Source: a virus
Length of the DNA stretch: 41,827 nt
Strand: one strand, 5' to 3'
IMG/VR virus record: IMGVR_UViG_3300037343_000524
Location: 1 to 41,827 of that record
Shown: piece by piece, positions 3,404-41,113 of the stretch
How positions within the stretch are numbered: position 1 is the stretch's first letter
Layout: the number at the start of each line of letters is the position of its first letter
Notes under the pieces: generated by a model
What the model saw: the letters and a program-made list of their open reading frames with translations, nothing else
What the model was told of the DNA's origin: nothing
Database searches by the model: none
Translations under genes and position numbers: made by a program

Positions 3404-3411
3404 GATAGCCT

Positions 3412-6400
3412 TCAGAAGATAATGGTGACGGATCGCCTAGCGCCCCGACCGATCAGGGAAGAGAGCTGGTAGATGCGGATGGCGAGGAATTGGCCCGGCC
3501 CGAGGGGCGCGCCCCAATCGGCGGTCTGCTGTGCGGCGGTGTAGAGGGCGCTGGTCGTCGTGGTGGTCAGCGTGCGCTTCACCGCCCCGCCATCGCGGAT
3601 TTCCACCTCGTAGGCTTCAACATCCTCAGCCAGCGGCACATCGCCCATCCCCCAGGTGTCGGCGGCCAGCGATCGCGACCGGCGCGTCCAGCGGATGGTC
3701 AGATCGCCGGGGCTGCGGGCGGTACGCCAAGGCTGCTCGACATGCACGACCGAGAAGGGCCGCAGCCCAGCGCCCTCGGGGGTGAAACTGGTGGCAACAA
3801 AGGTTTCGTCGCTGACCGGCTTGGAGGCCGGGCCGATGCGCCAGTTCCACGGCAGACCAAGATCGGCTTCCGCAATCGGCAGACTGGTAAGAGTTGTGTC
3901 CAGCACGACCACCCGCGCGCCAGTCGGCACCATGCTGACCATCGCCCCTTCGGTTCCGCGCTGGCCACGCAACAGGCGGGTCAGGCGATAGCGGCCGGGC
4001 GCGATCAGCTCGGCTGTGCCTGCCTGGACGATTTCCCATTGCCCAGCGGCGGCCTCAATGGCCAGCGCGTTGGCCCCGCCCAGCAGGGTGATGTCCGTGA
4101 CGCTCTCCAGTGTGCCGGAAAACAGGTCAACAACCAGCGCATTGCCCAGATCGAAGCGCGACACCGGCCCGGCGAAGAAATCTGCCGCCAGCACGCCCAT
4201 GCTGGCGCGCGTGCCGAAGGTGGTCAGCAGGGCAAAGCCGTCCGTCGCGGGGCTGCGGTAAACCGCGATCTCGCCCGGCCATGGCTTGGCATGTGCCGCG
4301 ACCATGGGGCGATGCGCGGGCTGATCTTCGCGCAGCTGTGGCAGGTCCAGAAGTACGATGTCGGGTGCGCCAAAGACTGTCGGCGTCGACAGCGTGGCCG
4401 GGCGCGGCTCGCCGGGTGGCAGGTCATAGACCGCGCGGTCCTGCCGCACGGCATCGACGCTGCGCAGGTCGGAATCCGCGATGGACACGAGGCGCATTTC
4501 CGTCAGGCGTCCGTCATGATCAAGCAGGATCACGTCGCAGGGATCCAGCGCAAGTCGCGAGGGCGGCAGGCGAAACACCGCACTTTCCCGGCCCACCCAA
4601 GCCTCCATCAGCGCGCGGCGGCAGCAGCGTTCTGCCTCCTCGGACGGGATCGCCATCGGGAAAGCCTCGGATGCGATCCGGGTTGTGTCGACGGTGATAC
4701 GCCGAGCTTCGACCTGTGCCGCGTCATAGTCCTCGTCGGCACGGGCGACTTGCCACTTTAGGGCCTGCGGCAGTTCGGTTTCCTGAGCGCGGGTCAGTTC
4801 TATCACGTCGCCCTGCGCCGAGGCAGGTGCGACCATGCTGTCGGGCGTGATGGTCAGACCGGCAATGCGGCCGCGCATCAGGAACTTGATGCGCCCTTCG
4901 CTCTCCAAGGCATCGAACCCGAAATGTCTGGCCAGCGTACTTATCGAAGCGCGCGGGGCTTCCAGCGCCGAGATGACATAGCCCTCGACCGCGCCCCAGA
5001 GGCCGGAGACGTCGATCAATTCCTCGGGCATTCCAGCGCGCAGGCACAGATGCCGCACCAGCGCGGCCAAGGACACAGCCCCCAGCCGCCCGGTCAGCCA
5101 ATGCCCGAGCCGCCAGTTCGGACCATCGGTCCAGACCTCGGTCAGCCCGGGGAAGAACGGATAGGGGCGGGCGTCCCATGTCCAGGCGGCGCATTCGGGC
5201 ACATGCACCATCCGGTTGCCATAGACCGATGAGGTCGGGTTGTTCGCCGCAGCGCCCCAGAACAGATAGGTCGCCTCGAGATAGGCGCGCTGGATCGCAT
5301 CATCCCGCCAGCCGCGTGAAAAGTAGGGTGTGAAGCTCTCCGACGATTTGGGATCAAAGAAGACGTTCGGCTGGTTGGTCCCGCGGTCGATGGCCGGGCA
5401 CCCCAGTTCGGTGAACCAGATTGGCTTGGACTGCGGCACCCACGCCGTCGGCGTGCCGCTCTCCATCCCACCCGGGCGGTTGAAATGCGGGTTTTGCCAC
5501 CATGCGCGCAGATCCTTGAAGCGGAAAACCCATGGCTTCGCGGCCGCGCCATCGCTGATCGGCGCGCGATTTTGCGCGGTTCGGTCCAAGGCGCTGGCAT
5601 AGAACCAGTCAAAGCCTTCACCACCAGTGATGTTGGATTGCAGATAGGCCCGGTCATAGATCGCCGGTGCCAGCGCAGCGTCGGCATGATCGAAACCATC
5701 GCGCCAATCGGACAGCGGCATGTAGTTATCGATGCCGATGACGTCGATATTCGCATCCGACCAGAGCGGGTCGAGGTGGAAGAACACATCGCCCGACCCA
5801 TCGCTGGGATGATGCCCGAAGTATTCCGACCAATCGGACGCGTATCCGATCTTGGGCCCAGCGCCGAGGATCGCGCGCACATCAGCCGCGAGGGATTTGA
5901 AGGCGGTCACCGCAGGGTAAGTGCTGGCCCCGCTGCGGATTGTGGTCAGACCGGGCATCTCAGAGCCGATCAGGAAAGCGTCCACGCCTCCAGCCGCTTT
6001 GCACAAATGCGCATAATGGAGGATCATCCGGCGCAAGCCCCACTCACCAACCGGGCCGGTCCAGTCGACCGTTTCGCCGGAAACGGTAAAGTTTGCGGGT
6101 GTGGCGGTGCCGAACAGCGCAGATACTTGGGTCGCTGCCGTCGCGGTCTTGTCCACCGAACCCGCGAAACCAGCCGCAGGGGAGCAGGTGATGCGCCCGC
6201 GCCAAGGAAAGGTCGGCTGGCCAGCGGTGGCGGAATTGGCGCTGTAGGGATTGGGTTTTGTATTGCCAGGCGGCACGTCCATCAGAATGAAGGGATAGAA
6301 GGTCACGCGCAGCCCGCGCGCCTTCATCTCCTGGATCGCCTGCACCACGGCAAAGTCGGCAGGGGTGCCGCCATAGACGGGACGATCCTCGGCATCACGG

Positions 6401-25562: not shown

Positions 25563-26902
25563 GCCGCCACCTCATCAGGCGAAGATCGAAGCGCTCTCAT
25601 CCCCGTCATCATTTCCCACCGCCGCACGGCGACGTCGCAATAGACCGGGTCCAGTTCCATCGCGAAGCAGCGCCGCCCAGCGCGTTCGGCGGCGACGATC
25701 TGGGTGCCGGAGCCGCAGAAGGGTTCATAGATCAGGTCGCCCGGATCCGAAAATGCCGTCAGCACCGCCTCGACCAGCGCCACTGGAAACACGGCCGGGT
25801 GCGATCCTGCTGCGCCCAGCCCGCCTTTGTGGCGCATGATCCGGAACACCGAGTCCGGGATGCGATGGCTTTGAATCGCGTTGCCGGTGCCGGTTTTGGC
25901 GTGGACGGTGCCGTCGGCCCCGCGCAGCCCACCGCCGCCAAGGGTCTCGCCCGCGTGCTTGGAAGGGACGGTCTTGTGCGGTTTGCGGGGCGCGCGGTTG
26001 AAGTGGAAAATGAACTCGTGTGACGGGGCCAGGCGGCCGTTCCAGTCGCCCGGCAAGCCCGGGCCCTGATCCCAGACATACCAGCCAAAGCGTCGCCAGC
26101 CAGACCTGCGCATCCATTCGACCCATCCTTCCCAATAGGGTTGCCATTCGCTATCGCGGTGCACGAGGCCCAGATTGACCAGCAGTTGCGCATCGTCGGT
26201 GATTGGGGCTGTGGCAAACACGCCTTGCATCAGCGCATCCCAATCGCCGACCTTTTCCTTGGCCGCGCCGTAGTCGCGCTGCTGGGCGTATGGCGGCGAG
26301 GTGAACATCAGCGTGGCCTGCTCGCCCTGCATCAGCTTGGCGACAGCTAACGGATCGGTGGCGTCGCCGCAGCACAGCCGATGCTTGCCCAGCGCCCAGA
26401 TATCGCCCGGTTTGGTGATGGGTTCGGCCGGTGGCTCGGGAATGGTGTCGGCGGCATCGTCAGAAATAGCGGGGCGGTCGTCGGCGTCGGCCAGCAAGGC
26501 GTCCAGTTCATCCTCGGGGATCCCGATCAGCCCGAGGTCGAAATCCTCGGCCAAGAGCGCCTGCAACTCCTGCAGGAGCAGTGCCTCGTCCCAGCTGCCC
26601 AGCTCGGTTAATTTGTTGTCGGCGATGCGATAGGCCCGGCGCTGCGCCTCGGTCAGATGGCCGAGAATGATGACCGGTGCTTCGGACAGGCCAAGATGAG
26701 CTGCCGCTAGGATGCGACCATGGCCTGCGATCAACTCACCATCAGCCGCCACAAGCACTGGCACGGTCCAGCCGAACTCGGCCATGCTGGCGGCGATCTT
26801 CGCGACCTGATCAGCATCGTGGGTCTTGGCGTTGCGGGCGTAGGACTTCAGCCGAGCCAGCGGCCAATGTTCGATCCGGCCCGGCAGCAGGGGCGCGTTC
26901 AC
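25559..26902 (-). CDS. ParB-domain DNA methyltransferase (TSPPY type)
   Basis: A 447-residue fusion. Residues ~8-110 are a ParB/Srx-like domain (GELIAGHGRILAAAHLG, YRIADNKLTELGSWDE). Residues ~165-435 are a DNA methyltransferase with catalytic motif IV TSPPY (201-205) and, near the end, the SAM motif FCGSGT (395-400), the permuted beta-class order. TSPPY is more usual for N4-cytosine enzymes, but adenine modification is possible. No restriction partner is adjacent, so it is probably an orphan that shields phage DNA or marks control sites. It is a diverged paralogue of the next gene upstream and overlaps it by four bases. Confidence 0.88.
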   Translation of the reverse strand: MNAPLLPGRIEHWPLARLKSYARNAKTHDADQVAKIAASMAEFGWTVPVLVAADGELIAGHGRILAAAHLGLSEAPVIILGHLTEAQRRAYRIADNKLTELGSWDEALLLQELQALLAEDFDLGLIGIPEDELDALLADADDRPAISDDAADTIPEPPAEPITKPGDIWALGKHRLCCGDATDPLAVAKLMQGEQATLMFTSPPYAQQRDYGAAKEKVGDWDALMQGVFATAPITDDAQLLVNLGLVHRDSEWQPYWEGWVEWMRRSGWRRFGWYVWDQGPGLPGDWNGRLAPSHEFIFHFNRAPRKPHKTVPSKHAGETLGGGGLRGADGTVHAKTGTGNAIQSHRIPDSVFRIMRHKGGLGAAGSHPAVFPVALVEAVLTAFSDPGDLIYEPFCGSGTQIVAAERAGRRCFAMELDPVYCDVAVRRWEMMTGMRALRSSPDEVAA

Positions 26903-28158
26903 GCAGCGAGCCTCTTCGCCTTCAGCTCGGCGAAGGTCTCACCGGTTTCTGCCAGCACGGCATTGGCGCCAGTGAATTGCTGCCAGCGATCAATGGCAAC
27001 ATCGACATAGGCCGGGTTCAACTCGATCCCGAAACAGACACGACCAGTAGTTTCCGCCGCGATTAGCGTCGTGCCCGATCCCATGAAGGGCTCAAACACC
27101 GCTTGTCCGGGACTGGAGTTGTTCAGTATCGGGCGCCGCATGCATTCGACTGGCTTTTGGGTGCCGTGGACGGTGGCCGCATCCTGATCCTTGCCGGAGA
27201 TGTGCCACAGCGTCGTCTGCTTCCGGTCGCCCGCCCAATGGCCCTTGCCGGTCTTCTTTACCGCATACCAGCAGGGTTCGTGCTGCCAGTGATAATCGCC
27301 GCGGCTGAGGACGAGGCGGTCCTTGGCCCAGATGATTTGTGACCGCACGGCGAAACCCGCCGCAACCAGGCTTTCGGCCACGGTCGAGGAATGTAGAGCG
27401 CCATGCCAGACATAGGCAACATCGCCGGGAAACAGCGCCCAAGCCTCGCGCCAGTCGGCCCGATCGTCGTTCAGCACTTTGCCGGTGCGTTTGGTCTTGG
27501 CCGCCCCAGCCTGGTTGCGCCAGGACGGATCGTATTCCACGCCGTAGGGCGGGTCGGTCACCATCAGCAGCGGGCGAACATCACCCAGCAGGCGTCCGAC
27601 TACATCGGCGGATGTACTGTCGCCGCAGATCAGACGGTGCGATCCAAGTTGCCACAGATCGCCCGCAACCGACACCGGCGTGACTGGCAGTTCGGGAATG
27701 TCATCCTCGCCCTCCACCGCGCCGCCGTCCACCTGACCAGGATCGCGCAGCAGGGCGTCCAGATCCTCGTCGGTGATCCCCAGCAGCGACAGGTCGAAAT
27801 CCTCGGCCAGCAACCCCGCGATCTCGTCGCGCAGCATCGCCTCGTCCCATTCGCCCAGCTCGGTCAATTTATTGTCGGCGATCCGGTAGGCCCGGCGTTC
27901 GGCCTCGTCGAGGTGGCTGAGCCGGATCACCGGTACGTCCTTCAGCCCCAGCATCGCCGCCGCCAAGACCCGGCCATGGCCCGCAATCAGCTCGCCATCG
28001 TCGGCCACCATGCAGGGCACGGTCCAGCCGAACTTCGCCATGCTGGCGGCGATCTTCGCGACCTGGTCGGTGCCGTGGATCTTGGCGTTGCGGGCATAGG
28101 GGCGCAGCCGGTCGAGCGGCCAAGTCTCGATCTGGCTCGGTGCGAAGACCAGGTCCAT
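26899..28158 (-). CDS. ParB-domain DNA methyltransferase (DPPY type)
   Basis: A 419-residue protein with the same plan as its neighbour: ParB/Srx-like N-terminus (GELIAGHGRVLAAAMLG), then a methyltransferase with DPPY (202-205) and FMGSGT (358-363). DPPY and the WHISGKDQD/HGTQKPVE segments are typical of N6-adenine enzymes of the beta class. The N-terminal 130 residues closely match those of the other gene, whereas the middle differs, so the two probably recognise different sequences. It is the first gene of this leftward unit, about 90 bases downstream of a strong terminator. Confidence 0.88.
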   Translation of the reverse strand: MDLVFAPSQIETWPLDRLRPYARNAKIHGTDQVAKIAASMAKFGWTVPCMVADDGELIAGHGRVLAAAMLGLKDVPVIRLSHLDEAERRAYRIADNKLTELGEWDEAMLRDEIAGLLAEDFDLSLLGITDEDLDALLRDPGQVDGGAVEGEDDIPELPVTPVSVAGDLWQLGSHRLICGDSTSADVVGRLLGDVRPLLMVTDPPYGVEYDPSWRNQAGAAKTKRTGKVLNDDRADWREAWALFPGDVAYVWHGALHSSTVAESLVAAGFAVRSQIIWAKDRLVLSRGDYHWQHEPCWYAVKKTGKGHWAGDRKQTTLWHISGKDQDAATVHGTQKPVECMRRPILNNSSPGQAVFEPFMGSGTTLIAAETTGRVCFGIELNPAYVDVAIDRWQQFTGANAVLAETGETFAELKAKRLAA

Positions 28159-28276: not shown

Positions 28277-28361
28277 AATTCTTCGATGATCAATAAATAG
28301 GTCAAGGGGGGCAGCTTTGTCAAATGAAAAAATGACGTGGATTCAATGACTTCTTACGGGG

Positions 28362-28519
28362 TGGCTTCCGCTGGCTGGCTTCCGGCGAGGTGGCTTCCAC
28401 AAACTGGCTTCTCTGGATTCCGAAAAGAATCCAGCGCGCCAAGATCGGGGTTCCGCAAGCCTTTGATAATGAGTCGCTTTTTTCAAAATCGAGCGTCAGG
28501 TGGATTCCGCCTGGATTCC
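28362..28519. repeat. cluster of TGGCTTCC/TGGATTCC repeats in a non-coding region
   Basis: TGGCTTCC occurs at 28362, 28376 and 28391, with a TGGCTTCT variant at 28405, at 14-15 base spacing. TGGATTCC follows at 28414, 28501 and 28512. A hairpin GGATTC-N6-GAATCC lies at 28415-28432. The whole 28159-28700 stretch has no convincing protein gene. The repeats could bind a regulator or be part of an RNA transcribed leftward toward the terminator at 28249. Confidence 0.55.
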
Positions 28520-28700
28520 CCGGTGAAACTGCCTGTCGCTAGCGAAATGCCGCGCTGCGCCCCCCCGCATACGTTTGGGGCCGGGGAGGAACCATGCCGT
28601 GGGGGGATCGTGTCGGATCCGCCCAAAGCGGATATTCAACTCTTGCGTGATCACCAGTCTGCGTAGCATGATCCCCCTGCAATTATTGTGAGGTTTTGGC

Positions 28701-29636
28701 TTGCCACAGATTAACAAGACCCTTGAATACCGTCGCGCCCGTTTCAACACCCCTGGTCAAAATCTCGAGCAACTGACGCGGCAGGCGTGGGGGCAGTTCG
28801 CCACCCATGTGGATCGCGCAGTCAACGGAAGTAACCATGCCACTGTCGCGGGGATGCGTGGGCGTGATGAAGGGGGTCTTGGGTTCTCGGTGCATGGCGC
28901 TCGCTTCAACGATGGACAGGGTGTCGGCACGATCCCTATGGTCCCGGCGGCAGAAGTTGATCTAGGCGAGCGGCAACCTAACGCTGGCGAGAACTTTGTG
29001 AACTCGGATTTCCTCGCGTTGATCCGTGGGAATCATGTGATCTGCCTCAACTGTGGCCGCAATGGTGGTGCGCTGCGCGGCTATCTGTCGGCGCTCTTCA
29101 AGAAAGCCGGGCTTCCGGTTGACGCCCAGCAATTCGAGCTGGTTCGAGTTGGCAATCCAAAGAACCTTGCAGTGATCGAAGCTGTTGGCGTTAGGAGTAT
29201 TGACCTCAAGGTGAGCATCGCTGAGGCAACTGCCGATGAAATCATCGACGGGCCGGCTGGTGGCGGGACATGGAAAAACGCTGTGAAGAAGATCGGTGAA
29301 GCCTTCCTCGGCCTGACCGAGAAAGATGCCGAGTTGCAGCAGTTGCGTGAAGCGGAGCAGGGCTCTGTTACCGTTTCGATCAATGTGGACAAACGCGATG
29401 TCACTTCTGCGCCCCACGGCCTCGATCACCTCGCAAGCGAATTTGTGGAGGACGAGGAAGCCGATGGCTATATTATCCACCTGCGCGACAACACAAAAAT
29501 CACGCCGCACGAAATCACTGTCAGAAAGCCCGTAAAGCTGGAAGCGCATGCAAACTCCGTTAGCGTCTTCCAAGCGTGGGACGCCATGCGCGAATTTATG
29601 GGCGAACTTGCGGAAAACGGCCAATTGGAGGCATGA
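28701..29636 (+). CDS. unrecognised soluble protein, first gene of a two-gene membrane system
   Basis: A 311-residue protein starting at TTG with a GTGAGG site upstream. No family was recognised. Visible features: an N-terminal basic segment (TLEYRRARFN), a central region with SDFLALIRGNHVICLNCGRN and a following RGYLSALFKKAGL, then an acidic helical C-terminal half with DVTSAPHGLDHLASEFVEDE. It has no signal peptide or membrane segment. Seven bases later begins a four-helix membrane protein, so the two form an operon. A cytosolic sensor plus membrane effector pair of this size recalls lambda RexA/RexB and, in reversed order, Kiwa KwaB/KwaA, but this is an analogy of layout, not homology. It lies between phage methyltransferases and a type I restriction system. 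Confidence 0.7.
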   Translation: MPQINKTLEYRRARFNTPGQNLEQLTRQAWGQFATHVDRAVNGSNHATVAGMRGRDEGGLGFSVHGARFNDGQGVGTIPMVPAAEVDLGERQPNAGENFVNSDFLALIRGNHVICLNCGRNGGALRGYLSALFKKAGLPVDAQQFELVRVGNPKNLAVIEAVGVRSIDLKVSIAEATADEIIDGPAGGGTWKNAVKKIGEAFLGLTEKDAELQQLREAEQGSVTVSINVDKRDVTSAPHGLDHLASEFVEDEEADGYIIHLRDNTKITPHEITVRKPVKLEAHANSVSVFQAWDAMREFMGELAENGQLEA

Positions 29637-30272: not shown

Positions 30273-33149
30273 TCATATCCCGCCTAACCCATCATCAAAC
30301 GTCGCGACCAACCCAAGCAGCTTATCGATGATCCGCTCGGTGATTTTCTTGCGTTCCAGGATCTTGGGCTTTTGCTCAAGTGCATCAATAACGGCTTCGC
30401 GCAGGGGCGGTTTTCCGGTGAACTGATAATCTTCCACTAGACGCTGGAACGTAGCCGGTGGGATGCCCTCGTCGGCGCAAACGGCTTCCATCGCCTTGAC
30501 CCGCTCGTCGTTCCAGAAGGCCAGAAAAGTCTCTTCGACACTGGCACCGCTATCCTGTGCCTTCAGCATGTGCTGTTCGATGAACCGCTCAATCAAATCA
30601 CGCTTGCTGCGCAACTGCGCCTCTGAACCAAGCATGTCCATCACCAACTTGCGTTTGCGCGCGCTTTCATCGCGCTGGGCGGCATCCAGGCTGTTGGCAT
30701 CCCGCGATACTTCGGCCAGCAGACCGAGGATATAGGCGACGTTGATTTCATCGCGCTGGATCAGCTCGAGTTCGAAATCAACCTCGTCGATGATCGACAC
30801 GGCCTCGGTTTCCTTTGCCCGCTTCGTCCGGTCATAGATGTCGAGGTACTTGCTTTTGTAATCTTCGAACTGCTGTGGTTCGAGGGTCAGGTCATCGGGG
30901 CTGAACTGCGTGAAGCTGCCCAGCACGTTACGGACGCGGATCAACTCGCGGAACGCCTGCACGAAGGCCAGCATTTCTCCCTCGGTTTGTAGATCGTTCA
31001 CGCTGTCGACGTCCGGTGCGATTTCCAGAAGCTTTGCGACGGCCGCGTTGAACTGTGCGACATATTCCTCGTAGGGGGCCATCAAGACGGTTTCGATGGC
31101 ATCCTTGTTGGAAAACAGCGTGATCGCCTCGTCCGTCTTGGTCTTCAGGTTCCGGAAGCAGACGATGTTGCCTTGGGATTTGACCTGGCCGAGGACGCGG
31201 TTGGTGCGCGAAAACGCCTGGATCAGCCCGTGGTACCGCAGGTTCTTGTCGACGTAGAGAGTGTTCAGTTTCTTCGCATCGAAGCCGGTCAGGAACATGT
31301 TGACCACCAGAAGGATGTCGACGCGGTCCTTGTCCTGAAAGTCGCGCCTCTCGCGCTCCTTCATCCGCTTGGCGATGTCCTTGTAATAGTTGTAAAAGCT
31401 GTGGCTGTCCTTCGTTGAATAGGCGGTCTGGTACATCGCGTTGTAGTCGGCGATGAACCGATCCAGCTTTTCGCGGGTGTGCACGTTGACCGGCTTTTCC
31501 ACGCCGATGTTGAAATCGGGATCGCCGATCATGCCGTCGGCATCGGCATCTTCTTCGTTGGCCGTGTATGTGAAAATCGTCGCAACGCGCAGATCGTGCT
31601 CACCCGCGTCGCGGCGCCGTTTGAGGGTTTCGTAATAGGTGATCAGCGCATCGACGGAACTGACGCACAGCATCGCGCTGAACTGGCGGTTGTGGGTCTT
31701 GCGATCATGGTTCTGGATGATCCAGTCCACGACACCGTTGATACGGTCGGGGTGGTCGAAGAATTCCTTGATGTTGATGCCTGCGACCTCTTCGTCGATC
31801 AAGCTGCCATCTTTGCGCTTCAGCTTGCCCCAGTATTCAACCGAAAACCGCAGAACGTTCTCATCGCTGATCGCGTCGGTGATGACATACTTGTGCAGGC
31901 AGTCGCCGAACAGATCCTTGGTGGTGCGCTTCGCCATCGCATTTTCGGCAAAGATCGGCGTGCCGGTGAAACCGAACATCTGCGCGCGGCTGAAGAAGGC
32001 AACGATGCGCTTGTGGGTCTGGCCGAATTGTGAGCGATGGCATTCGTCGAAGATGAACACGACCCGCTCGTCCTTCACCGCCTGCAGAGGCCCTTCGAAC
32101 TTGTCGCGGGAAATGGCCGTGTTCAGTTTCTGGATGGTGGTGACGATCAGCTTGTGATCGCCTGCCAGCTGCTTGACCAGCGCACGGGTGTTGTCCGTGC
32201 CATCGACCGAGCCGTCGCTGAAATGGTTGAATTCCTTGGTGGTTTGGTAGTCCAGGTCGCTGCGGTCGACAACGAAGACGACCTTATGGACCTTCGGGTT
32301 CTCGATCAGCACCTGCGCTGCCTTGAAACTGGTCAGCGTCTTGCCCGAACCGGTCGTGTGCCAGATGTAGCCATTCTTGCGCCCGGCCTTCACCCGCTCA
32401 ACAATCGCCTCGACCGCGAAATACTGATAGGGTCGCAGCACCATTAGCACCTTGTTGCTTTCGTGCAGGACGATGTATTTGCTGATCATCTTCGACGCAT
32501 GGCACTTCTCGAGGAAGGCGTCGGCAAAGGCGTCAAGCTGGGTGACCAGCTTGTTTTCGACATCTGCCCAGAAGAAGGTCTGGTTGAAATCCTGATCGCG
32601 GTTGTTGGCGTAGTACTTCGTGTTCACGCCGTTCGAGATGACGAACAGCTGCACATACTGGAACAGGCCATGGTCCGACCAATAGGAATGGCGCTGATAG
32701 CGGTTGACCTGGTGGAACGCCTCCTTCAGCTCCATGCCGCGGCGCTTCAGCTCCACCTGGATCAGGGGCAGGCCGTTGATCAGCAGCGTAACGTCATAGC
32801 GGTTCTTGTAGCTGCCCTCTTGGGTGACTTGCGACGTGACCTGATACCGGTTGCGGCACCATTCTTCGGTGTTCAGGAACTGAATATAAGCGGTGGTGCC
32901 ATCGTCGCGGGGCAGGGCCATGCGGTCGCGCAGGATCTTGGCCTTGTCGAAGACGTTGCCCTTGTCGAGGTGGTTCAGCACGCGGGTGAATTCGGCGTCC
33001 GACAGACTGACGGCATTATGTGCTTCTAGTTGCGCCTTCAGGTTCGCGCGCAGCCCAGCGCCGTCAGTGATTGTGACGGGGTCCCAGCCAAGGCTGTGCA
33101 GGCGTTTGATCAGGCCGGATTCAAGCTGCGCTTCGGACTGGACGCTCAT
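30273..33149 (-). CDS. hsdR: type I restriction enzyme, R subunit
   Basis: A 958-residue motor-nuclease. The N-terminal nuclease has the PD-(D/E)xK signature RYDVTLLIN (Asp119) and QVELK (Glu133, Lys135). The helicase core shows Walker A TGSGKT (266-271), motif II DECH (368-371) and motif III GFTGTPIF, followed by a second RecA lobe and a helical C-terminus that docks on the methyltransferase. It translocates DNA and cuts at a distance when target sites are unmethylated. It overlaps the rhuM-like gene by four bases and is the last gene of the leftward operon. All key residues appear intact. Confidence 0.93.
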   Translation of the reverse strand: MSVQSEAQLESGLIKRLHSLGWDPVTITDGAGLRANLKAQLEAHNAVSLSDAEFTRVLNHLDKGNVFDKAKILRDRMALPRDDGTTAYIQFLNTEEWCRNRYQVTSQVTQEGSYKNRYDVTLLINGLPLIQVELKRRGMELKEAFHQVNRYQRHSYWSDHGLFQYVQLFVISNGVNTKYYANNRDQDFNQTFFWADVENKLVTQLDAFADAFLEKCHASKMISKYIVLHESNKVLMVLRPYQYFAVEAIVERVKAGRKNGYIWHTTGSGKTLTSFKAAQVLIENPKVHKVVFVVDRSDLDYQTTKEFNHFSDGSVDGTDNTRALVKQLAGDHKLIVTTIQKLNTAISRDKFEGPLQAVKDERVVFIFDECHRSQFGQTHKRIVAFFSRAQMFGFTGTPIFAENAMAKRTTKDLFGDCLHKYVITDAISDENVLRFSVEYWGKLKRKDGSLIDEEVAGINIKEFFDHPDRINGVVDWIIQNHDRKTHNRQFSAMLCVSSVDALITYYETLKRRRDAGEHDLRVATIFTYTANEEDADADGMIGDPDFNIGVEKPVNVHTREKLDRFIADYNAMYQTAYSTKDSHSFYNYYKDIAKRMKERERRDFQDKDRVDILLVVNMFLTGFDAKKLNTLYVDKNLRYHGLIQAFSRTNRVLGQVKSQGNIVCFRNLKTKTDEAITLFSNKDAIETVLMAPYEEYVAQFNAAVAKLLEIAPDVDSVNDLQTEGEMLAFVQAFRELIRVRNVLGSFTQFSPDDLTLEPQQFEDYKSKYLDIYDRTKRAKETEAVSIIDEVDFELELIQRDEINVAYILGLLAEVSRDANSLDAAQRDESARKRKLVMDMLGSEAQLRSKRDLIERFIEQHMLKAQDSGASVEETFLAFWNDERVKAMEAVCADEGIPPATFQRLVEDYQFTGKPPLREAVIDALEQKPKILERKKITERIIDKLLGLVATFDDGLGGI

Positions 33150-34150
33150 GTCTTGCCCCGGTCGCGGGACAAATCCTTGGCCAGCGCCTCGATCGCGGCA
33201 AGGTCATCCGTGTCGGCCTGCATTGCATCTGCCTGCTTTCGGGCGGCATCGAAAACCGCAAAACGGTCGGCGGCCAGTTGTTGCGCCACGTCCATGCGCA
33301 GTTTGCCCGCGTGGGTCAGCACTTCGCGGTCGTTGAACTTTAAGAACGCGTCCAGCTTTTCGGCCCACATGGCCATTGTTACCGGGGCGCGGCGGCGGGC
33401 CTGATCTTCGGCAAAATCCAGATACATCGTGACGATGCGGTTCAGCTCGTCCACCTCCTCGGCGCGCAGGTAGTTCTTGCTGGTGCCAACATCGCCCTTC
33501 CGCACGATGCCGCCCTTCCAACTGGTCAGGCCCATGTTCTGCGCTGTAGGATTGGCGCGGGCGGCAATGATCTCGGCCGCCGTCTGGCCGGTCACGGCCC
33601 AAAGCATCTTGTTCTGCACCTTCTGGAAGAACAGCTGTGCTGCGTCCGATCCCTTGTCGTAATCCACGGCGGTGGTGAACAGATCCTTCACCTTCTGGTA
33701 GAACCGCTTTTCCGAGGCGCGGATGTCGCGGATGCGCGCCAGCCATTCGTCGAAATAGTCCCACTGCTCCGCCGCCTTCAGCTTTGCGTCGTCCATCGCA
33801 AAGCCCTTGACCAGATATTCCTGCAAGACGGTGCCCGCCCAGCGCCTGAACTGCACGCCGCGTCGGGACCGGACGCGGAAGCCCACAGCGAGGATGGCGT
33901 CCAGGTTGTAGGTCAGCGTCGAGTAGGTCTTGCCATCGGCGGCAGGTATCAAGGATTCCTTGACAACTGAATCGGCCACCAGCTCGCCGTCCGCAAAGAT
34001 GTTCCGCAGGTGCAGGCTGACGTTCTGCTTCGATGTGTCGAACAGAGCGGCCATTTCCGTCTGGGTCAACCAGACGGTTCCGTCCATCGCTCGCAAGCTG
34101 ATCTGCGCGGCACCATCTTCGGTCTGATACAGGATCACTTCGCCGGTCAT
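33146..34150 (-). CDS. rhuM: RhuM-family protein inside the hsd operon
   Basis: A 334-residue protein of the RhuM family: YQTEDGAAQISLRAMDGTVW, LTQTEMAALFDTSKQNVSLH (a DNA-binding-like segment) and YNLDAILAVGFRVRSRRGVQ are the diagnostic N-terminal blocks. RhuM proteins are often encoded within type I restriction operons and near toxin-type genes; their biochemical role is not settled. The start at 34150 has a GAGG site. It sits between hsdS and hsdR and overlaps hsdR by four bases, so it is translated with the restriction system. Confidence 0.85.
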   Translation of the reverse strand: MTGEVILYQTEDGAAQISLRAMDGTVWLTQTEMAALFDTSKQNVSLHLRNIFADGELVADSVVKESLIPAADGKTYSTLTYNLDAILAVGFRVRSRRGVQFRRWAGTVLQEYLVKGFAMDDAKLKAAEQWDYFDEWLARIRDIRASEKRFYQKVKDLFTTAVDYDKGSDAAQLFFQKVQNKMLWAVTGQTAAEIIAARANPTAQNMGLTSWKGGIVRKGDVGTSKNYLRAEEVDELNRIVTMYLDFAEDQARRRAPVTMAMWAEKLDAFLKFNDREVLTHAGKLRMDVAQQLAADRFAVFDAARKQADAMQADTDDLAAIEALAKDLSRDRGKT

Positions 34151-34159
34151 GCCCACCCT

Positions 34160-35356
34160 CTACACGAACATCTGCTGCAACAGACCCTTTTTGAAAGCCT
34201 CGAGGTTGGTAACTTGATCGACCACCGCCCGAATTTTGGAGTCCATCGCGGAAATCGCGTTGGCAATCTTCTGTTGTTCGTCTGGATGCGGAAATGGCAA
34301 TGGAAGAGCCATGAGATCAACAATCGCAATCGCCATGCGGTCGTGGCGGGCACCGTAATTTGCAACACTTTTCATGTAGTCATGCCAAAGCGATGTTTGG
34401 AAGTATTGGGCAAAGAAGTCAGTACTCTCATCATGAAATCGAAAAACGGTATAGAGTGGCGACATGACGCCGTCGCCTAGAGCATTACGCTTTATGGGGC
34501 CGACAGGCGCGCTGACAGAGATCCGAGGATTGTATACGAAGTCGCCTTTCTTCACGATATAGTATCCGCCAAGGTTTTCCGAGTTTGCGATGTCCTTGTC
34601 GAAAAAATCACGCTGATCAATGACGCCGTGGACGGCGGAGTTGGTCAAAACGCGCGCGTGGGCCAAGTCTTTGTTCTTTTTCGCACTGCGTGACGCGATA
34701 TCGCCTAGGTCTCTTACATCCCATTCCGGAAAAGCCTTCCCATCGTCTCGCGTAAACCGAAGCTGCTGGCTGAATAGCTTTTGCATCAGCCCTGCCTTGA
34801 ACCGCGCCAGCGCTGCATGCTTTGCCGTCAGCTGGACGAGTTTGGCATCCACCATCCTCAGAAACGCGGCGATTTTCTGCTGTTCAGGAAGGGTGGGCAA
34901 ATGCAGAGGTATGCGGGCAAAGTCATCGGCATAAAGGCGCAACCGGTCGCTGGTAATCCCGTGCGAATAAGCGCCAAGGAGGTGAAGCATCCGCTTCGCT
35001 TTGAACCACTGGTCAAAGAATTGCGGCGAAGTATTCTCCCGTGGGGATAGGACGACATAGGCTGGGCTGACCATGCATTCTTCATGTGCGAGCCCAACCG
35101 CGCCTTGCCACATGCGCATCATGTTGTAGACGACATCGCCCCGCTGTGCCCGCAAATTTTGATTGTCAGCTGCGTCAGCCGCCATCAGCCTGTCCATGCT
35201 GTCGCGCCGCACAAGCCCGCGATCCATCGTCACCGAGTAGATGGGAAGGCCAGCGGCACCCTTCGCGCGGCTGTTCTTGAAGGCGTCGCCAGCATGACCC
35301 GGTTTCCAAGGATCCTTGAACTCGGGAAACCGAAGCTTTGGGGCGGCAGGAATCAT
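34160..35356 (-). CDS. hsdS: type I restriction enzyme, specificity subunit
   Basis: A 398-residue protein with the expected two-part repeat: two target-recognition domains, each followed by a conserved helix beginning LPTLPEQQKIAAFL (first half) and PHPDEQQKIANAI (near the C-terminus). It determines the bipartite DNA sequence recognised by the methyltransferase and nuclease. The start MIPAAPKLRFPEF overlaps the hsdM stop by four bases. Both half-repeats are complete, so it appears functional. Confidence 0.92.
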   Translation of the reverse strand: MIPAAPKLRFPEFKDPWKPGHAGDAFKNSRAKGAAGLPIYSVTMDRGLVRRDSMDRLMAADAADNQNLRAQRGDVVYNMMRMWQGAVGLAHEECMVSPAYVVLSPRENTSPQFFDQWFKAKRMLHLLGAYSHGITSDRLRLYADDFARIPLHLPTLPEQQKIAAFLRMVDAKLVQLTAKHAALARFKAGLMQKLFSQQLRFTRDDGKAFPEWDVRDLGDIASRSAKKNKDLAHARVLTNSAVHGVIDQRDFFDKDIANSENLGGYYIVKKGDFVYNPRISVSAPVGPIKRNALGDGVMSPLYTVFRFHDESTDFFAQYFQTSLWHDYMKSVANYGARHDRMAIAIVDLMALPLPFPHPDEQQKIANAISAMDSKIRAVVDQVTNLEAFKKGLLQQMFV

Positions 35357-36906
35357 ACCGGCGCCTCCAGACCCAGCTCTGCGCAAAAGTCACGGATAGA
35401 TTTGTCGAGGGCAGCCATATTGCCTTCAATCGCGCGGACCTCAGCCGCGACAGTAGCCAAGTCGATTTCCGCGTCCGCTTCGAACGTATCCACATAACGG
35501 GGGATGTTCAGGTTGAAGTCATTTTCGGCGATTTCACCCAAGGTTGCGCGATGACTGAATCGTTCGACCTCAACGCGGTTGCGGAAGGTTTCAACGATGC
35601 GGTCGACATCGGCCGAACGAAGGAAGTTCTGGTTTGTCGCCTTTTCGAAGCAGGTCGAGGCATCAACAAACAGCACATCTTCGGTTTCGCGGCATTTCTT
35701 GAACACCAAAATGCAGGTCGGAATGCCGGTACCATAAAAAATGTTTGCAGGTAGGCCGATGACCGCATCGAGCCAGTTGCGATCCTTGATCAGGTATTGC
35801 CGGATATGCCCTTCGGCCCCGCCACGGAAAAGGGCACCATGCGGCAGGATCACCGCCATGGTGCCGTTGTCGTCCAGATGATGCAGCATATGCTGGACAA
35901 AGGCAAAGTCGGCCTTCGATGCCGGGGCCAGCTTACCATATTGGCTGAACCGGTCATCCGACAACAGCAGGGGGTTTGACGACCAATTGGCGCTGAACGG
36001 TGGGTTGGCCACCACCGCCTCAAACCGCATGCCGTCATGCTGGGGGTGTTCCAGCGTGTCTTCCTGCTTCAGGTCGAAATTGCGGTAATGCACGCCGTGC
36101 AAGATCATGTTCATGCGGGCGAGGTTGTATGTGGTACGGTTCATCTCCTGCCCGAAGAACTCGGAAACTTCCGCCTCCTTGGCCACGCGCAACAGCAAGG
36201 AGCCCGACCCACAGGCCGGATCATAGACCGATTTCAGCCGCGTCTTTCCCGTGGTGACGATGCGCGCAAGGATGGTGGACACCTGCTGTGGAGTGTAGAA
36301 CTCGCCCGCCTTCTTGCCCGCGCCGCTGGCGAACTGCCCGATCAGGTATTCATAGGCGTCGCCCAACACATCGCTGTCGGCCTGATCCAGCTGGAAATCG
36401 ATCTCGTCCAGATGGGTCAGGACGCGCGCGATCAGGGTATTCTTGGCCTCTTCGGTGCGGCCGAGTTTCGTGGATGTCAAATCGAGGTCTTCGAACAGGT
36501 TGTCGAAATCATCCTCAGACTCCGTGCCCATGGTCGAGCGCTGGATGTTGTTCAGGATCTTGGTCAGGTCGGCCAGGATAAACTGGCCAGGCTTTGATCC
36601 GCGTTTGGCGATCTGACTGAACAGCTCTGATGGGCGAAGGAAGTAGCCCAGCGCGTCGACTGACGCCTCGCTGACGGCGTCAAGGATTGCCTGTCCGTCC
36701 GCAGTGGCCTCATTGACAGACAGATAATCTATGCCGTCCTGCTTTAGCACATCGTTGGCATATAGGTGCATGCGCTCTGACAGGTATTTGAAGAAGATGA
36801 ACCCAAGAATATAATCGCGGAATTCATCGGCGTTCATCTTGCCGCGCAGCGTGTTGGCAATATCCCAGAGCTTCTGTTCAAGTTTCTTCTTTTGCTCTTC
36901 GGTCAT
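35353..36906 (-). CDS. hsdM: type I restriction enzyme, methyltransferase subunit
   Basis: A 517-residue N6-adenine methyltransferase. The N-terminal helical domain (KLWDIANTLRGKMNADEFRD) is typical, followed by the SAM motif DPACGSGS (229-236) and catalytic NPPF (301-304). With HsdS it methylates host and prophage sites; with HsdR it restricts. The start MTEEQKKK is chosen because the preceding 17 residues of the longer frame lack family character. The 85-base gap upstream may hold its own promoter; none was clearly identified. Confidence 0.93.
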   Translation of the reverse strand: MTEEQKKKLEQKLWDIANTLRGKMNADEFRDYILGFIFFKYLSERMHLYANDVLKQDGIDYLSVNEATADGQAILDAVSEASVDALGYFLRPSELFSQIAKRGSKPGQFILADLTKILNNIQRSTMGTESEDDFDNLFEDLDLTSTKLGRTEEAKNTLIARVLTHLDEIDFQLDQADSDVLGDAYEYLIGQFASGAGKKAGEFYTPQQVSTILARIVTTGKTRLKSVYDPACGSGSLLLRVAKEAEVSEFFGQEMNRTTYNLARMNMILHGVHYRNFDLKQEDTLEHPQHDGMRFEAVVANPPFSANWSSNPLLLSDDRFSQYGKLAPASKADFAFVQHMLHHLDDNGTMAVILPHGALFRGGAEGHIRQYLIKDRNWLDAVIGLPANIFYGTGIPTCILVFKKCRETEDVLFVDASTCFEKATNQNFLRSADVDRIVETFRNRVEVERFSHRATLGEIAENDFNLNIPRYVDTFEADAEIDLATVAAEVRAIEGNMAALDKSIRDFCAELGLEAPV

Positions 36907-36991
36907 TATCCGCGTCCCCGACTGTTTTATAGGCAAGTTTGCGCAACAAGCCCGCAAGGGGAAGGCGAAAATTGCAATGCTTCGCCTATGC

Positions 36992-37681
36992 TTACAACGC
37001 AGAGTGCCTTCGCGCCAGCCATGGCCGTCCCTTCGGCATCGCCGCCGTCAGCTCGACCTCCCGCAGCATCCCGCCCGCGATCAGTCCATCTCGCACCCAA
37101 TCCAGCGCCAGCCACCAATCCTCATACCCACGCCGGGCGGATGCGATCTGCTCCGGATGGGGCCGCCAGGTGACCGGGCAGGCAAGGATGTCTATGGTTT
37201 TCCATGTGCCGCGTGCAGTTGGGCCTTGGACCCGTATCCGCACGGTGCCCACCACGATGGTGGCAGAGCGTTCGCCATGCTGGTTCTGTTTGGTTTCGAC
37301 CGGCACGCAGCGCGGCACAGCGCCGGGCATCCAGTCGGGCGTCAGCCCGGCTCTTGCCAGTTCCGCCACCCGGATCGCCATGCGGATGCCGCCGAGGCTG
37401 TCCGGGATCCCGGCAACGGTGGCGGCGATCACCTCGGCATCGGGATGGGTGTAGCTGCCCATTTTGTGCTGGCCGCCGTCCACTTTGCAGCCAAGCATGG
37501 CACGCTGGAGGAGGACGTATTCGAGGCCAAAGCCAAACCCTTCCTCCGTCACGTCCTTTGGCGGCGGCAGTTCCAGCTGTGCCCGCTCGACACGAAAGGC
37601 CCATTCCAGCGCCGCCTGGACGCCCAGCGCACGTTTGACCTTGCTGCCGCTCGAACGACCGATCCGTCCCTGGACGCTCAT
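36992..37681 (-). CDS. conserved phage protein, unknown
   Basis: A 229-residue protein starting SVQGRIGRSSGSKVKRALGV and containing QAALEWAFRVERAQLELPPP, AMLGCKVDGGQHKMGSY and ADVIAATVAG-like segments. Proteins of this type occur in alphaproteobacterial phage early regions, but no function is known to me. Its start overlaps the C5 methyltransferase stop by four bases, so it belongs to the same early operon. Confidence 0.7.
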   Translation of the reverse strand: MSVQGRIGRSSGSKVKRALGVQAALEWAFRVERAQLELPPPKDVTEEGFGFGLEYVLLQRAMLGCKVDGGQHKMGSYTHPDAEVIAATVAGIPDSLGGIRMAIRVAELARAGLTPDWMPGAVPRCVPVETKQNQHGERSATIVVGTVRIRVQGPTARGTWKTIDILACPVTWRPHPEQIASARRGYEDWWLALDWVRDGLIAGGMLREVELTAAMPKGRPWLARRHSAL

Positions 37682-38946
37682 GGTAGAAGCCCCTCAAGGA
37701 AATCCATCTGCGCTGGGCCTTCCGTCCCTGCAGTAGGCCGCCAGATCCACGGGCCCGAGGCCATGGGCAACTGCGAAGAGCGCCACGCATGTGCTGCTGC
37801 CAGAGGATGAACTCCATTGCCGAGCAGGCGCAGAGCGCGTGCCCGATGGGCCAGCCCATCAGCCATCCGACGAAGAGCGGGTTCAGCCGCCGCCGTGCCC
37901 GGGCTTTCAGGATGCGCCGCGAGACGACGCGCCCATGCGAGGCAATCAGATAAGCCCACAGCGGGCGCGAGATCGGGGCGTGCGGTGAGGACCGCCGCCC
38001 ATCCGGCGTGATCGCCGGGTCCGGGTGGGTGAAGCCCTGTTCCGCCCGGTAATGCAGGATATCCATCCGGCTTTTGCCATCGGCCCGCGTGATGCTCGCC
38101 GGGCTGCTGCCCTTCCAATTCTGCGCGGCCGGTGTCGGCCACTGGATCGCTTGCGCGCTCAGCTTCGGCTCGCCCCGGCTGTTGATCTTGCCGCGCAGCC
38201 GATCCACATGATCGTCTGCCACCGGCGTCTGCCATTGCGCCGCCTGCGCTGGCAGGGGCGGCATCCCGCCCGAGCCATAGCTCTGGCCCGGCCCACCCTT
38301 CGCGCCGTCCGTAGCCTTGGGTGTCGACCAGTTGTTGGTGATGCCCAGCGCCAGCGCTTCCGCTTTCCGGGTGAAATCGCTGTTCCCCGCCGGATTGTAC
38401 CGATCCGTGCCGGGATGCAGGCTCATCGGTGTGGGCCAGGATGAAGATGCGGTTCCGCTGATGCGGCGCGCCAACTTCTGCCGCGCTGAACAGGCCCGCC
38501 GCAGGCGTGTAGCCCAAGTCCCAAAGCTCTCGCAGGACGGTCTCAAGCCCGAGGGTGACGTGCCCGGGGACATTTTCGAGGAACACCCATTTGGGCTGGC
38601 ATTCAGCGATGACGCGGGCCACCTCGGGCCAGAGGTGGCGGGGATCTTCAGCACCGCCGCGCTTTCCGGCGGCACTGAAGGGCTGGCAGGGATATCCCGC
38701 GAGGACGATTTCGAAGGCTCCGAGGAATGGCCTGGCGTCGAATGAACGCAGGTCGTCCCAGATTGGTGCCGGGGCGAAATACCCGGCGCGCTGGGCGGCG
38801 ATGAGGACGCTGCGAGGCCAGTCCTCCCATTCGACAAAGGCGCGGGTGTGATATCTGGGTTCGGCGAGCATGAGGCCCAGATCCAAGCCTCCGCCGCCTG
38901 CGCAGAGGGACAATCCGTGCCGGGGACCTGACACCATGCCATTCAC
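37678..38946 (-). CDS. C5 cytosine DNA methyltransferase with apparent internal frame switch
   Basis: The uninterrupted frame has 422 codons. Its first ~170 residues are a clear C5 methyltransferase: CAGGGGLDLGL (SAM loop), catalytic PCQPFS (Cys87), ENVPG (124-128) and QRNRIFIL. From about 38436 to about 37785 this frame reads as low-complexity Gly/Ala/Arg text with low third-position G+C, while the +1 frame carries conserved-looking sequence: SWPTP, WSTPKATDG and LNPLFVGWLMGWPIG. The last ~35 codons of the first frame (SQLPMASGPWIW to the end) again look coding. Either two compensating indels have damaged the gene or its middle is recoded. The GTG start at 38946 overlaps the upstream stop (GTGA). 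The N-terminal identification is firm; activity is doubtful. Confidence 0.75.
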   Translation of the reverse strand: MNGMVSGPRHGLSLCAGGGGLDLGLMLAEPRYHTRAFVEWEDWPRSVLIAAQRAGYFAPAPIWDDLRSFDARPFLGAFEIVLAGYPCQPFSAAGKRGGAEDPRHLWPEVARVIAECQPKWVFLENVPGHVTLGLETVLRELWDLGYTPAAGLFSAAEVGAPHQRNRIFILAHTDEPASRHGSVQSGGEQRFHPESGSAGAGHHQQLVDTQGYGRREGWAGPELWLGRDAAPASAGGAMADAGGRRSCGSAARQDQQPGRAEAERASDPVADTGRAELEGQQPGEHHAGRWQKPDGYPALPGGTGLHPPGPGDHAGWAAVLTARPDLAPAVGLSDCLAWARRLAAHPESPGTAAAEPALRRMADGLAHRARALRLLGNGVHPLAAAHAWRSSQLPMASGPWIWRPTAGTEGPAQMDFLEGLLP

Positions 38947-39908
38947 AGTACCCCTCGCTGGCGCAACCGGTCTGTGGTCACCAGTCCGCGCGCCAGCATC
39001 GCCCCGCACATGGCGGTGCTGATCATGCTGGGGGGCAGAAACTTGTCCGAGTTGACGATGTCCGCATAGAATTTTGCCAGTTCATCAGGGTTTAGCACCG
39101 GTTTGACTTGGGTCTTGCGGCTGCGCTTGTCGCTACGACCACTGCCACTTGCGGCAGCTTGCGCATCGCGCTGGGCCGCGCGTTCCATGAACCTATCGAG
39201 GGCCTTGGGGCCATCTGGCGGATTGGGATGATCGGCCCGGCTCTCGGTCGCCACCTCGATGATCCGATCCTCGGTCAGCCCGAGATCATCGATCCAGCGC
39301 TGGACGTGCAGCTTGGCGGGCCAGCCCTGCCACCAGGCGGGCAGCGTGGCGTTGGCAGCGAAGCCGAGCGCCGAGAGCAGTTTTGCGAAGAACCGATCAA
39401 AATCGGTCTCGCGCGCCTGCGCGTCCTCCTCCTCCTTTACAGGTTTACTTAAGGGTTCTCTTACAAGGTTAGTCTCCGGTTTCCGGAGATGGCTTTGGGC
39501 AAAATCCGGAGATGGCTTTGCCGAAAATCCGGAGATGGCCCCATTTCCGGAATCCGGAGTTGGGTTGTCGTCCTGTTCATCGTCCGTTCCAGAAATCCCG
39601 TCTCCGGTTTCCGGAGTTGGCTCTTGTGGAAATCCATCCTCGAACCCCAGGATATAGCGGGTGGCCTGACGCTTGTGGGTGCGCGGATCATGGATGCGGA
39701 CGCGGTGGATCAGGCGCAGATCTTCCAGTTTGGTGAGGTGGTCGTTCAGCGCCGAGATCGACATCTCCGCGTCGTCGGCCAGCCGCGCCTGCGTCGGAAA
39801 GCAGCCGAAATCCGGATTGTGCCGGTCGCAAAGGAACCACAGCACGATCTTGGTGGCAGGCTTCAACCCGCGTTGCTGGATGGCCCAGACGGTCGCCTTG
39901 TGGCTCAT
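38943..39908 (-). CDS. winged-helix DNA-binding protein, likely replication initiator
   Basis: A 321-residue protein. Residues 1-90 form a winged helix of the kind found in phage replication proteins and DnaT/O-like factors (MSHKATVWAIQQRGLKPATK, FPTQARLADDAEMSISALND, LIHRVRIHDPRTHKR). A disordered linker (about 95-160) contains repeated DNA elements, and a helical C-terminal domain ends in LVTTDRLRQRGVL. A GGAGGG site precedes the ATG, which overlaps the nuclease stop by four bases. The DNA-binding fold is well supported; the replication role is inferred from domain layout, operon position next to a VRR-NUC nuclease, and the iteron-like repeats inside the gene, as lambda O carries its origin. 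Confidence 0.7.
   Translation of the reverse strand: MSHKATVWAIQQRGLKPATKIVLWFLCDRHNPDFGCFPTQARLADDAEMSISALNDHLTKLEDLRLIHRVRIHDPRTHKRQATRYILGFEDGFPQEPTPETGDGISGTDDEQDDNPTPDSGNGAISGFSAKPSPDFAQSHLRKPETNLVREPLSKPVKEEEDAQARETDFDRFFAKLLSALGFAANATLPAWWQGWPAKLHVQRWIDDLGLTEDRIIEVATESRADHPNPPDGPKALDRFMERAAQRDAQAAASGSGRSDKRSRKTQVKPVLNPDELAKFYADIVNSDKFLPPSMISTAMCGAMLARGLVTTDRLRQRGVL
39436..39620. other. candidate phage replication origin: iteron-like repeats plus AT-rich stretch
   Basis: The core TCCGGAG(A/T)TGG occurs at 39482, 39505, 39528, 39553 and 39610. The first three are exactly 23 bases apart and share flanking ATTTTG/GGCTTTG sequence. Because 23 is not a multiple of three, these copies are read by the enclosing gene in three different frames, so the repetition is selected at DNA level. 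An AT-rich stretch (39436-39472, including TTTACAGGTTTACTTAAGG) adjoins the repeats, as an unwinding element would. This mirrors the origin within lambda gene O. Confidence 0.6.
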
Positions 39909-40300: not shown

Positions 40301-40563
40301 GCGGCACCGCCTTTCGGGAAGGCGGCTGCGGCGATGGCGTGCAGCGGGCGGCGATCCAGCAAGCGCAGCAGCCCGAGCGCGTCGCCACACTCAACGGCAT
40401 CGTCGGTCTGGCCGACGACCACCCGCGCGGCGAGGATGACCAGCGAGTCCGGATGCTGGGTGGTGTCGGCCAGGACGCCGCGCGCCTCGGTCAGGCGATC
40501 GCGCATCCAGTCGCCAGTGGTGGACGGCGGGATCACGGGAGAGTGGGACAGTAGGCTGCTCAT
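40297..40563 (-). CDS. small hypothetical protein
   Basis: An 88-residue, mostly helical protein (DWMRDRLTEARGVLADTTQH; DDAVECGDALGLLRLLDRR). It overlaps both its neighbours by four bases, which strongly supports translation as part of the early operon. No family recognised. Confidence 0.65.
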   Translation of the reverse strand: MSSLLSHSPVIPPSTTGDWMRDRLTEARGVLADTTQHPDSLVILAARVVVGQTDDAVECGDALGLLRLLDRRPLHAIAAAAFPKGGAA

Positions 40564-40808
40564 TTGCGACCCCGCCGTGTTCGCGCGGGGCGGGTCTGTT
40601 CCTGCGCGTTGATCCAGCTTTCGACCGATGTGCGCCGGTAGAGCACCTTGCGCCCGATCCGCGTGCAGGGCGGGCCAAGCTGGCGGGCCTCCCAGCGGGC
40701 GAGGGTGTCGCAGGCAATGCCGAGTTCACCGGCCAGCTGTTCGCGGCTGATCCAGTCGGTCAGCAAGTTGAGGGGTTGGTCCTGCGCGGCAGGGGCTATG
40801 GTCTGCAT
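40560..40808 (-). CDS. small helix-turn-helix DNA-binding protein (excisionase/MerR-like)
   Basis: An 82-residue protein with an HTH_17/excisionase-type domain: WISREQLAGELGIACDTLAR, RWEARQLGPPCTRIGRKVLY and RRTSVESWI. It may be an excisionase, a replication accessory factor or a repressor of the early operon. It is the first gene of that operon, with a GGAG site before the ATG and a repeat-rich control region upstream. The basic C-terminal tail could contact DNA. Confidence 0.8.
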   Translation of the reverse strand: MQTIAPAAQDQPLNLLTDWISREQLAGELGIACDTLARWEARQLGPPCTRIGRKVLYRRTSVESWINAQEQTRPARTRRGRK

Positions 40809-40870
40809 TTCGGTCTCCTATCCAGATCCCGGCAGATGCCGGAGACGGGGCGAGGGAAGCAGACGGGCAG

Positions 40871-41003
40871 GACCGGAACCTAGGCAGAGACCGGAATTGA
40901 GAGGCCGGAACCCATTCCGGTCCTTGTTTCATTGGTTTTTTTGGCGAGAGACCGGAATGCGAATCGGAAACGCCGCCCAGCGTCATTCCGGCATTTCCGG
41001 TCA
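40871..41003. promoter_or_regulatory. control region with repeated CCGGAA sites
   Basis: The non-coding stretch 40809-41113 contains ACCGGAA-type elements at 40871, 40890, 40903 and 40951, plus inverted copies ATTCCGGT (near 40914), CATTCCGG (40984-40991) and TTTCCGGT (near 40994). CCGGAATG at 40952-40959 and CATTCCGG form an inverted pair. The cluster stands about 60-190 bases upstream of the leftward early operon, as operators would. A T7 run lies at 40936-40942. Clear promoter hexamers were not found. Confidence 0.5.
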
Positions 41004-41113
41004 TCTGTGGCAGATCAGCCCTGCTGATCGTGGCGCTTAACGCTGCAAGCCGGATTTCATCGGCAGGGCGCGACGCCAACCGGGTGGCGCGGGGCAGAAC
41101 ACCCGTTCCGGTG

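Follow-up and report, generated by a model that had tools for sequence, protein, structure and literature searches.

The window analysed here is a 41,827 bp IMG/VR virus contig, a prophage of Rhodobacterales type. A short sequence recurs within one of its protein genes, and the question is whether this repetition belongs to the protein or to the DNA, and what it is for. The sequence TCCGGAG[AT]TGG is present on the plus strand of the full record at positions 39482, 39505, 39528, 39553 and 39610. The steps between copies are 23, 23, 25 and 57 bp, i.e., the first three copies are exactly 23 bp apart, and there is no sixth match on either strand of the whole record. All five copies are within one minus-strand gene (positions 38943–39908). 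Each of the three 23-bp copies is read in a frame of its own, giving SHLR, PSPDF and ISGF segments. A preliminary description of this DNA had reported the five positions, the spacing and the three-frame reading; a record-wide search finds the copies exactly as claimed, and translation bears out the frames. It had also proposed an origin at this site. Sequence comparisons support that proposal, and the segment very probably represents a phage replication origin located inside the gene of its own initiator.

The copies are termed iterons and are annotated on the minus strand. Iteron 1 (39482–39492) is beside an AT-rich part, iterons 2 (39505–39515) and 3 (39528–39538) follow, and after iteron 4 (39553–39563) comes the distal iteron 5 (39610–39620). 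In addition to what had been observed earlier, copies 1, 4 and 5 are inverted repeats, formed with positions 39472–39481, 39541–39552 and 39600–39609, respectively (e.g., GTCTCCGGTTTCCGGAGATGG at 39472–39492). When one mismatch is allowed, the best 11-mer has five copies in 160 bp of the gene. Synonymous-codon shuffles of the gene (n = 300) produce a maximum of three copies, a number reached six times, and 0 of 300 match the observed five. No other 400-bp stretch of the window has a five-copy 11-mer cluster.

The gene encodes a 321 aa O-like replication initiator, with matches to HTH_36 (2.4e-11) and to PHROG 345, 'replication initiation O-like' (1.7e-25, residues 2–184). In annotated relatives the gene that comes next is often one for a helicase, a DnaC-like loader or a P-like protein, and several have a helicase or loader gene next door. 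In the window no P-like helicase-loader gene adjoins the initiator gene; the next gene encodes a C-5 DNA methyltransferase (37678–38919). A Pfam search with the window protein returns HTH_36 and, weakly, other HTH models only and does not match PF04492 (Phage_rep_O), and neither Pfam nor NCBIfam gives a match to the Rep_3/RepA-type family of iteron plasmids.

An AlphaFold2 model of the protein displays an N-terminal winged-helix DNA-binding domain (aa 1–90, positions 39639–39908, minus strand) with a recognition helix at aa 51–63 and wing strands at aa 67–70 and 84–87. Its fold matches are the DnaD N-terminal domain and MarR-type winged helices. A linker predicted to be unstructured (aa 97–153, positions 39450–39620, minus strand; pLDDT <50) separates it from a C-terminal helical domain (aa 158–317, positions 38958–39437, minus strand), defined by AlphaFold2 secondary structure and presumed to be the part that recruits the helicase or replisome. 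The C-terminal domain has no confident fold match; the best whole-chain match is DnaD, with an E value of 5e-3, and no solved structure related by sequence was found. The iterons are in the linker DNA, where the AT-rich repeats also begin. The five iterons are within aa 97–143 and thus between the two domains of the protein.

About 115 relatives, with proteins 40–92% identical, were compared. Nearly all keep the triple of sites at 23 and 23 bp, in gene frames 1, 0 and 2. Among close relatives only one (L149) is without one core copy, and another (L105) is a broken gene. The iteron words vary across relatives and include CCATCTCCGGA, CCATCTCCGAA, CCGTGTCCGGA, CCGTGTCTCAA, CCGTGTCCAGA and CCATGTCCAGA, but the copies within one gene mostly have a common word and change together in all three frames. 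Within a gene, the three copies differ on average by 0.061 mismatches per site compared with 0.180 (minimum 0.160) for copies shuffled among genes, a contrast to which shared ancestry contributes. The encoded peptides change differently in each frame (AISGF to AVSGF, PSPDF to PCPEN, SHLRN to SRVRN) because the DNA dictates them. The inverted half-site after the last iteron in gene direction, that of iteron 1, behaves in the same way: its base follows iteron base 5 in 116/116 genes, and this accounts for a perfect E/D switch at residue 145.

Codon use in the linker is consistent with such a constraint. Same-codon conservation is 1.9–2.4 times the codon-use expectation at codons 97–102 and 115–168 and about 1.1–1.8 times elsewhere in the gene, apart from one block outside the linker that is also high (codons 181–186, 1.93 times). 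GC3 is 0.12–0.6 in the linker versus mostly about 0.65–0.9 in the rest of the gene. The preliminary description had stated that the repetition is at the DNA level, that the linker codons are shaped by it, and that homologues should keep the repeats as DNA despite frame changes. These statements hold in both close and distant relatives, also where the amino acids change: the copies vary in step, base for base, from frame to frame, conservation of synonymous sites is about twice the expectation, and close relatives that keep the gene have not lost the array.

A proline-rich linker with repeated peptides would place the repetition in the protein instead, as the predicted lack of structure might suggest, and some relatives do have in-frame repeats (Aggregatibacter phage S1249, where the null is 73/100). 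Copies in three frames that encode different peptides, base-by-base co-variation across those frames and conserved synonymous sites make this extremely unlikely, and for the family of the window gene a protein repeat is rejected on codon conservation and cross-frame co-variation. A recent functionless tandem duplication of a short DNA unit can be given hardly any weight either. Slippage makes tandem repeats, but here the spacers are not alike, and the array has persisted through deep divergence (proteins 40–92% identical) with the words changing in concert. The TCCGGA palindromes could also be targets of the phage's own methyltransferase (37678–38919) or of a restriction system, since CCGG is a common methylation target and a C-5 methyltransferase gene is just downstream. 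However, iterons of relatives that have no CCGG (CCGTGTCTCAA, CCGTGTCCAGA) are at the same places with the same spacing, and TCCGGA is also at many scattered sites outside the gene; the CCGG-free iterons lead to rejection of methylation targets, whose probability is negligible.

The AT-rich stretch reported to adjoin the repeats is real and is directly 3' of the iteron array in the gene direction. No other 50-bp duplex in the gene is as unstable as positions 39426–39475, and in the whole window only 0.12% falls below this stability. The AT-rich part consists of three 12/13-bp AACC-N-GTAA repeats, AACCTTGTAAGAG / AACCCTTAAGTA / AACCTGTAAAGG (39434–39470, minus strand), which are kept at the codon level and constitute a candidate DNA unwinding element. 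The AACC-N-GTAA motif is present in 31 of 39 non-redundant relatives, 21 of which have a second copy at a distance of 12, 13 or 17 bp; it is absent from lambda and some distant relatives. The Glu codon in the motif is GAA in 53/53 cases and in 46% elsewhere. The Val codon in the MSH group is GTA in 41/42 cases versus 43/469 elsewhere, and the third base of the Pro codon in the motif varies. The fixed letters are therefore those of the DNA motif. A purine tract, GGAGGAGGAGGA (39424–39435, minus strand), comes after the putative unwinding element and covers codons 157–162, where the same-codon frequency is 0.99 compared with an expected 0.48. An internal ribosome site was considered for GGAGGAGGAGGA and rejected, as inspection by eye shows no start codon at a suitable distance downstream.

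The winged helix and the iterons are linked in their variation. Residue 51 of the recognition helix is I or V in 68/68 genes with ATC words and R in 46/46 genes with GTG words (114/114 in total), and wing residues 80 and 82 split as cleanly by iteron word. The tree of C-terminal domains requires 28 changes of iteron type, of which at least nine fall on well-supported branches; three changes suffice on the tree of winged helices. Pairs with C-terminal domains 93–95% identical can have winged helices of 62–67% identity and different words, and in such pairs the nucleotide identity steps up around codons 133–145, which is the end of the array. The tree changes and the pairs argue that the winged helix and iterons form a single cassette that moves relative to the C-terminal domain. 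That residue 51 and iteron type became linked repeatedly and independently is rejected, since the winged-helix tree needs only three changes. The association is in essence a single deep split, and what the nine independent pairs on the C-terminal tree reveal is cassette exchange rather than nine separate gains of the residue. The residue 51 link is accordingly a hypothesis about specificity rather than as a case of repeated evolution.

It is possible, although a tentative proposal that is less probable than not, that the AACC-N-GT(A/C)A 12-mers represent a shared, sequence-specific unwinding element of HTH_36-type initiators in alpha- and gammaproteobacterial phages. In single-stranded form the element might be read by a host factor or by the initiator. 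Iteron words would drift meanwhile, and phages would swap cassettes of winged helix plus iterons and so change their replication specificity.

Winged-helix proteins are often regulators, and one would see the same co-variation between sites and DNA-binding domain if the repeats were operators through which the protein controls transcription within its own gene, with replication starting elsewhere. This is unlikely. Three points favour replication: the low-stability repeats are fixed at the codon level, relatives have helicase and helicase-loader genes as neighbours, and the arrangement parallels that of the lambda origin, which is proven. Operator and origin roles could coexist. For an origin inside the initiator gene, we infer the following course of events. 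The N-terminal winged helix would bind the CCATCTCCGGA iterons, which are head-to-tail at 23 bp and flanked by inverted-repeat sites, and several initiator protomers would assemble on them. The adjoining 12/13-bp AT-rich repeats would then open, and the C-terminal helical domain would bring the host replicative helicase, such that replication would start at this site. GC skew, named as a check in the preliminary description, gives no pointer to an origin here; gene order dominates the skew in a prophage.

Iterons with their own words and mostly 21–25-bp steps are found in the same linker in phages of Rhodobacter, Roseibium (Labrenzia), Rhizobium, the cyanobacterium Pseudanabaena, Vibrio, Salmonella, Klebsiella, Serratia, Pectobacterium and Escherichia, and in-gene arrays are also present in phages of Pseudomonas and Acinetobacter. 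When 45 representatives are compared with synonymous shuffles, 24 are at ≤1/100, 28 at ≤5/100 and 17 above 5/100; in most of those that do not beat the null, the copies number two or three or the repeats are in frame. A further eight lineages were fetched afterwards as a test. All eight have an in-gene array with at least some 21–25-bp steps, and the null is ≤3/100 in seven, the eighth being the Aggregatibacter phage S1249 with its in-frame repeats. The HTH_36 'replication protein' genes of ST64B, SfV, ZF40, PPF1, RcKemmy and others have a homologous winged helix, and the linkers of ST64B, ZF40, PPF1 and RcKemmy have in-gene arrays, although the RcKemmy array fails to exceed the shuffled null and the arrays of ST64B and ZF40 exceed it only at 2–5/100. 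Genes of this type differ from the window gene in iteron words and C-terminal domains, and their records list no origin there.

Two circular plasmid records, from Arsenophonus (with phage genes; L366, positions 3788–4561) and Sulfitobacter (L367, positions 2501–3220), each have an initiator with five in-gene iterons, and in the Sulfitobacter plasmid a DnaB-like helicase gene adjoins it. The initiator gene of Pseudanabaena phage Pam5 (L161, positions 3001–3804) is missing from the annotation of its record; a scan with Pam5 yields mostly relatives of its C-terminal part and not initiators of this type. In a 15-sequence alignment of winged helices, no stretch is sufficiently conserved for such a scan. 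Microbacterium phage ValentiniPuff (L170, positions 1501–1764) encodes a stand-alone 87-aa winged helix of the same kind that has no linker or C-terminal part.

Other regions of the window also have repeats. Intergenic GACCGGAAT repeats in both orientations are found at positions 40870–41010, upstream of a small HTH_17 gene (40560–40808, minus strand), and represent a candidate operator region. Intergenic TGGCTTCC / TGGATTCC repeats at 28340–28520 are between a methyltransferase-like gene (26899–28158, minus strand) and an ORF at 28701 (plus strand). Positions 30273–36957, inside the viral contig, have a type I restriction-modification-like operon with helicase/nuclease, RhuM-like, specificity and methylase subunits, as judged by eye from the translations; its GC content is about 0.55–0.6, below that of the flanks (about 0.65).

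If an origin within the initiator gene is correct, origins would be readable from sequence in many phages and prophages in which the initiator has no annotation beyond that of a helix-turn-helix protein, and a specificity code between recognition helix and iteron would be testable by swaps. The locus would also offer a clean natural case in which DNA sites dictate the amino acids of three reading frames and in which recombination cannot separate an origin from its reader.

The closest known system is lambda, the proven case, where iterons in O at 20, 24 and 23 bp steps are followed by an AT-rich, purine-skewed tract (PMC7466680, PMC4488673). As in the window, the lambda O origin and the Stx phage O origins have an initiator with an N-terminal DNA-binding half, and iterons between the parts that encode the DNA-binding and C-terminal regions (PMC7466680, PMC4488673). 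Lambda also shares with the window the steps of 20–24 bp and the AT-rich, purine-skewed tract right after the array. Lambda O matches PHROG 345 (5.2e-17, residues 16–169), such that both proteins match over the N-terminal half. However, the Pfam families differ (HTH_36 in the window, PF04492 at 5.7e-36 for lambda O), and a direct profile comparison of the window protein with the single lambda O sequence is not significant. The window iterons are head-to-tail half-sites with three inverted repeats, whereas those of lambda are four palindromes; the AACC-N-GTAA repeats of the window's AT-rich part are absent from lambda, and the window has no adjacent P gene. Because the arrangement and PHROG 345 are common to both, yet the Pfam family is different and the direct comparison not significant, the segment is most likely a lambda-type in-gene origin by its mode of working, and its initiator does not belong to the Pfam family of lambda O.

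Two other systems show parts of this pattern. For the initiator RepA_N of PLE satellites, experiments have shown that the DNA-binding domain varies with the origin and that the two are exchanged as a pair, with the C-terminal domain left in place (PMC8263062). The PLE origin is intergenic, whereas that of the window would be in linker codons, so that one crossover would move both. In the alphaproteobacterial repABC plasmids the origin is within the gene of the initiator RepC, close to an A+T-rich region, and replication is abolished by silent mutations at that place (PMC3155836). Unlike the window gene, repC has no iterons, and it belongs to a different protein family. No account of an in-gene origin for this HTH_36 initiator family was found in the literature searched, and the main text of the Rhodobacter phage paper has no mention of a replication origin or iterons. 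In-gene origins are already described for lambdoid phages in work on lambdoid O specificity types and in reviews of phage replication modules. The probable in-gene origin is of a known kind, and what is new is the cassette exchange and the shared candidate unwinding motif.
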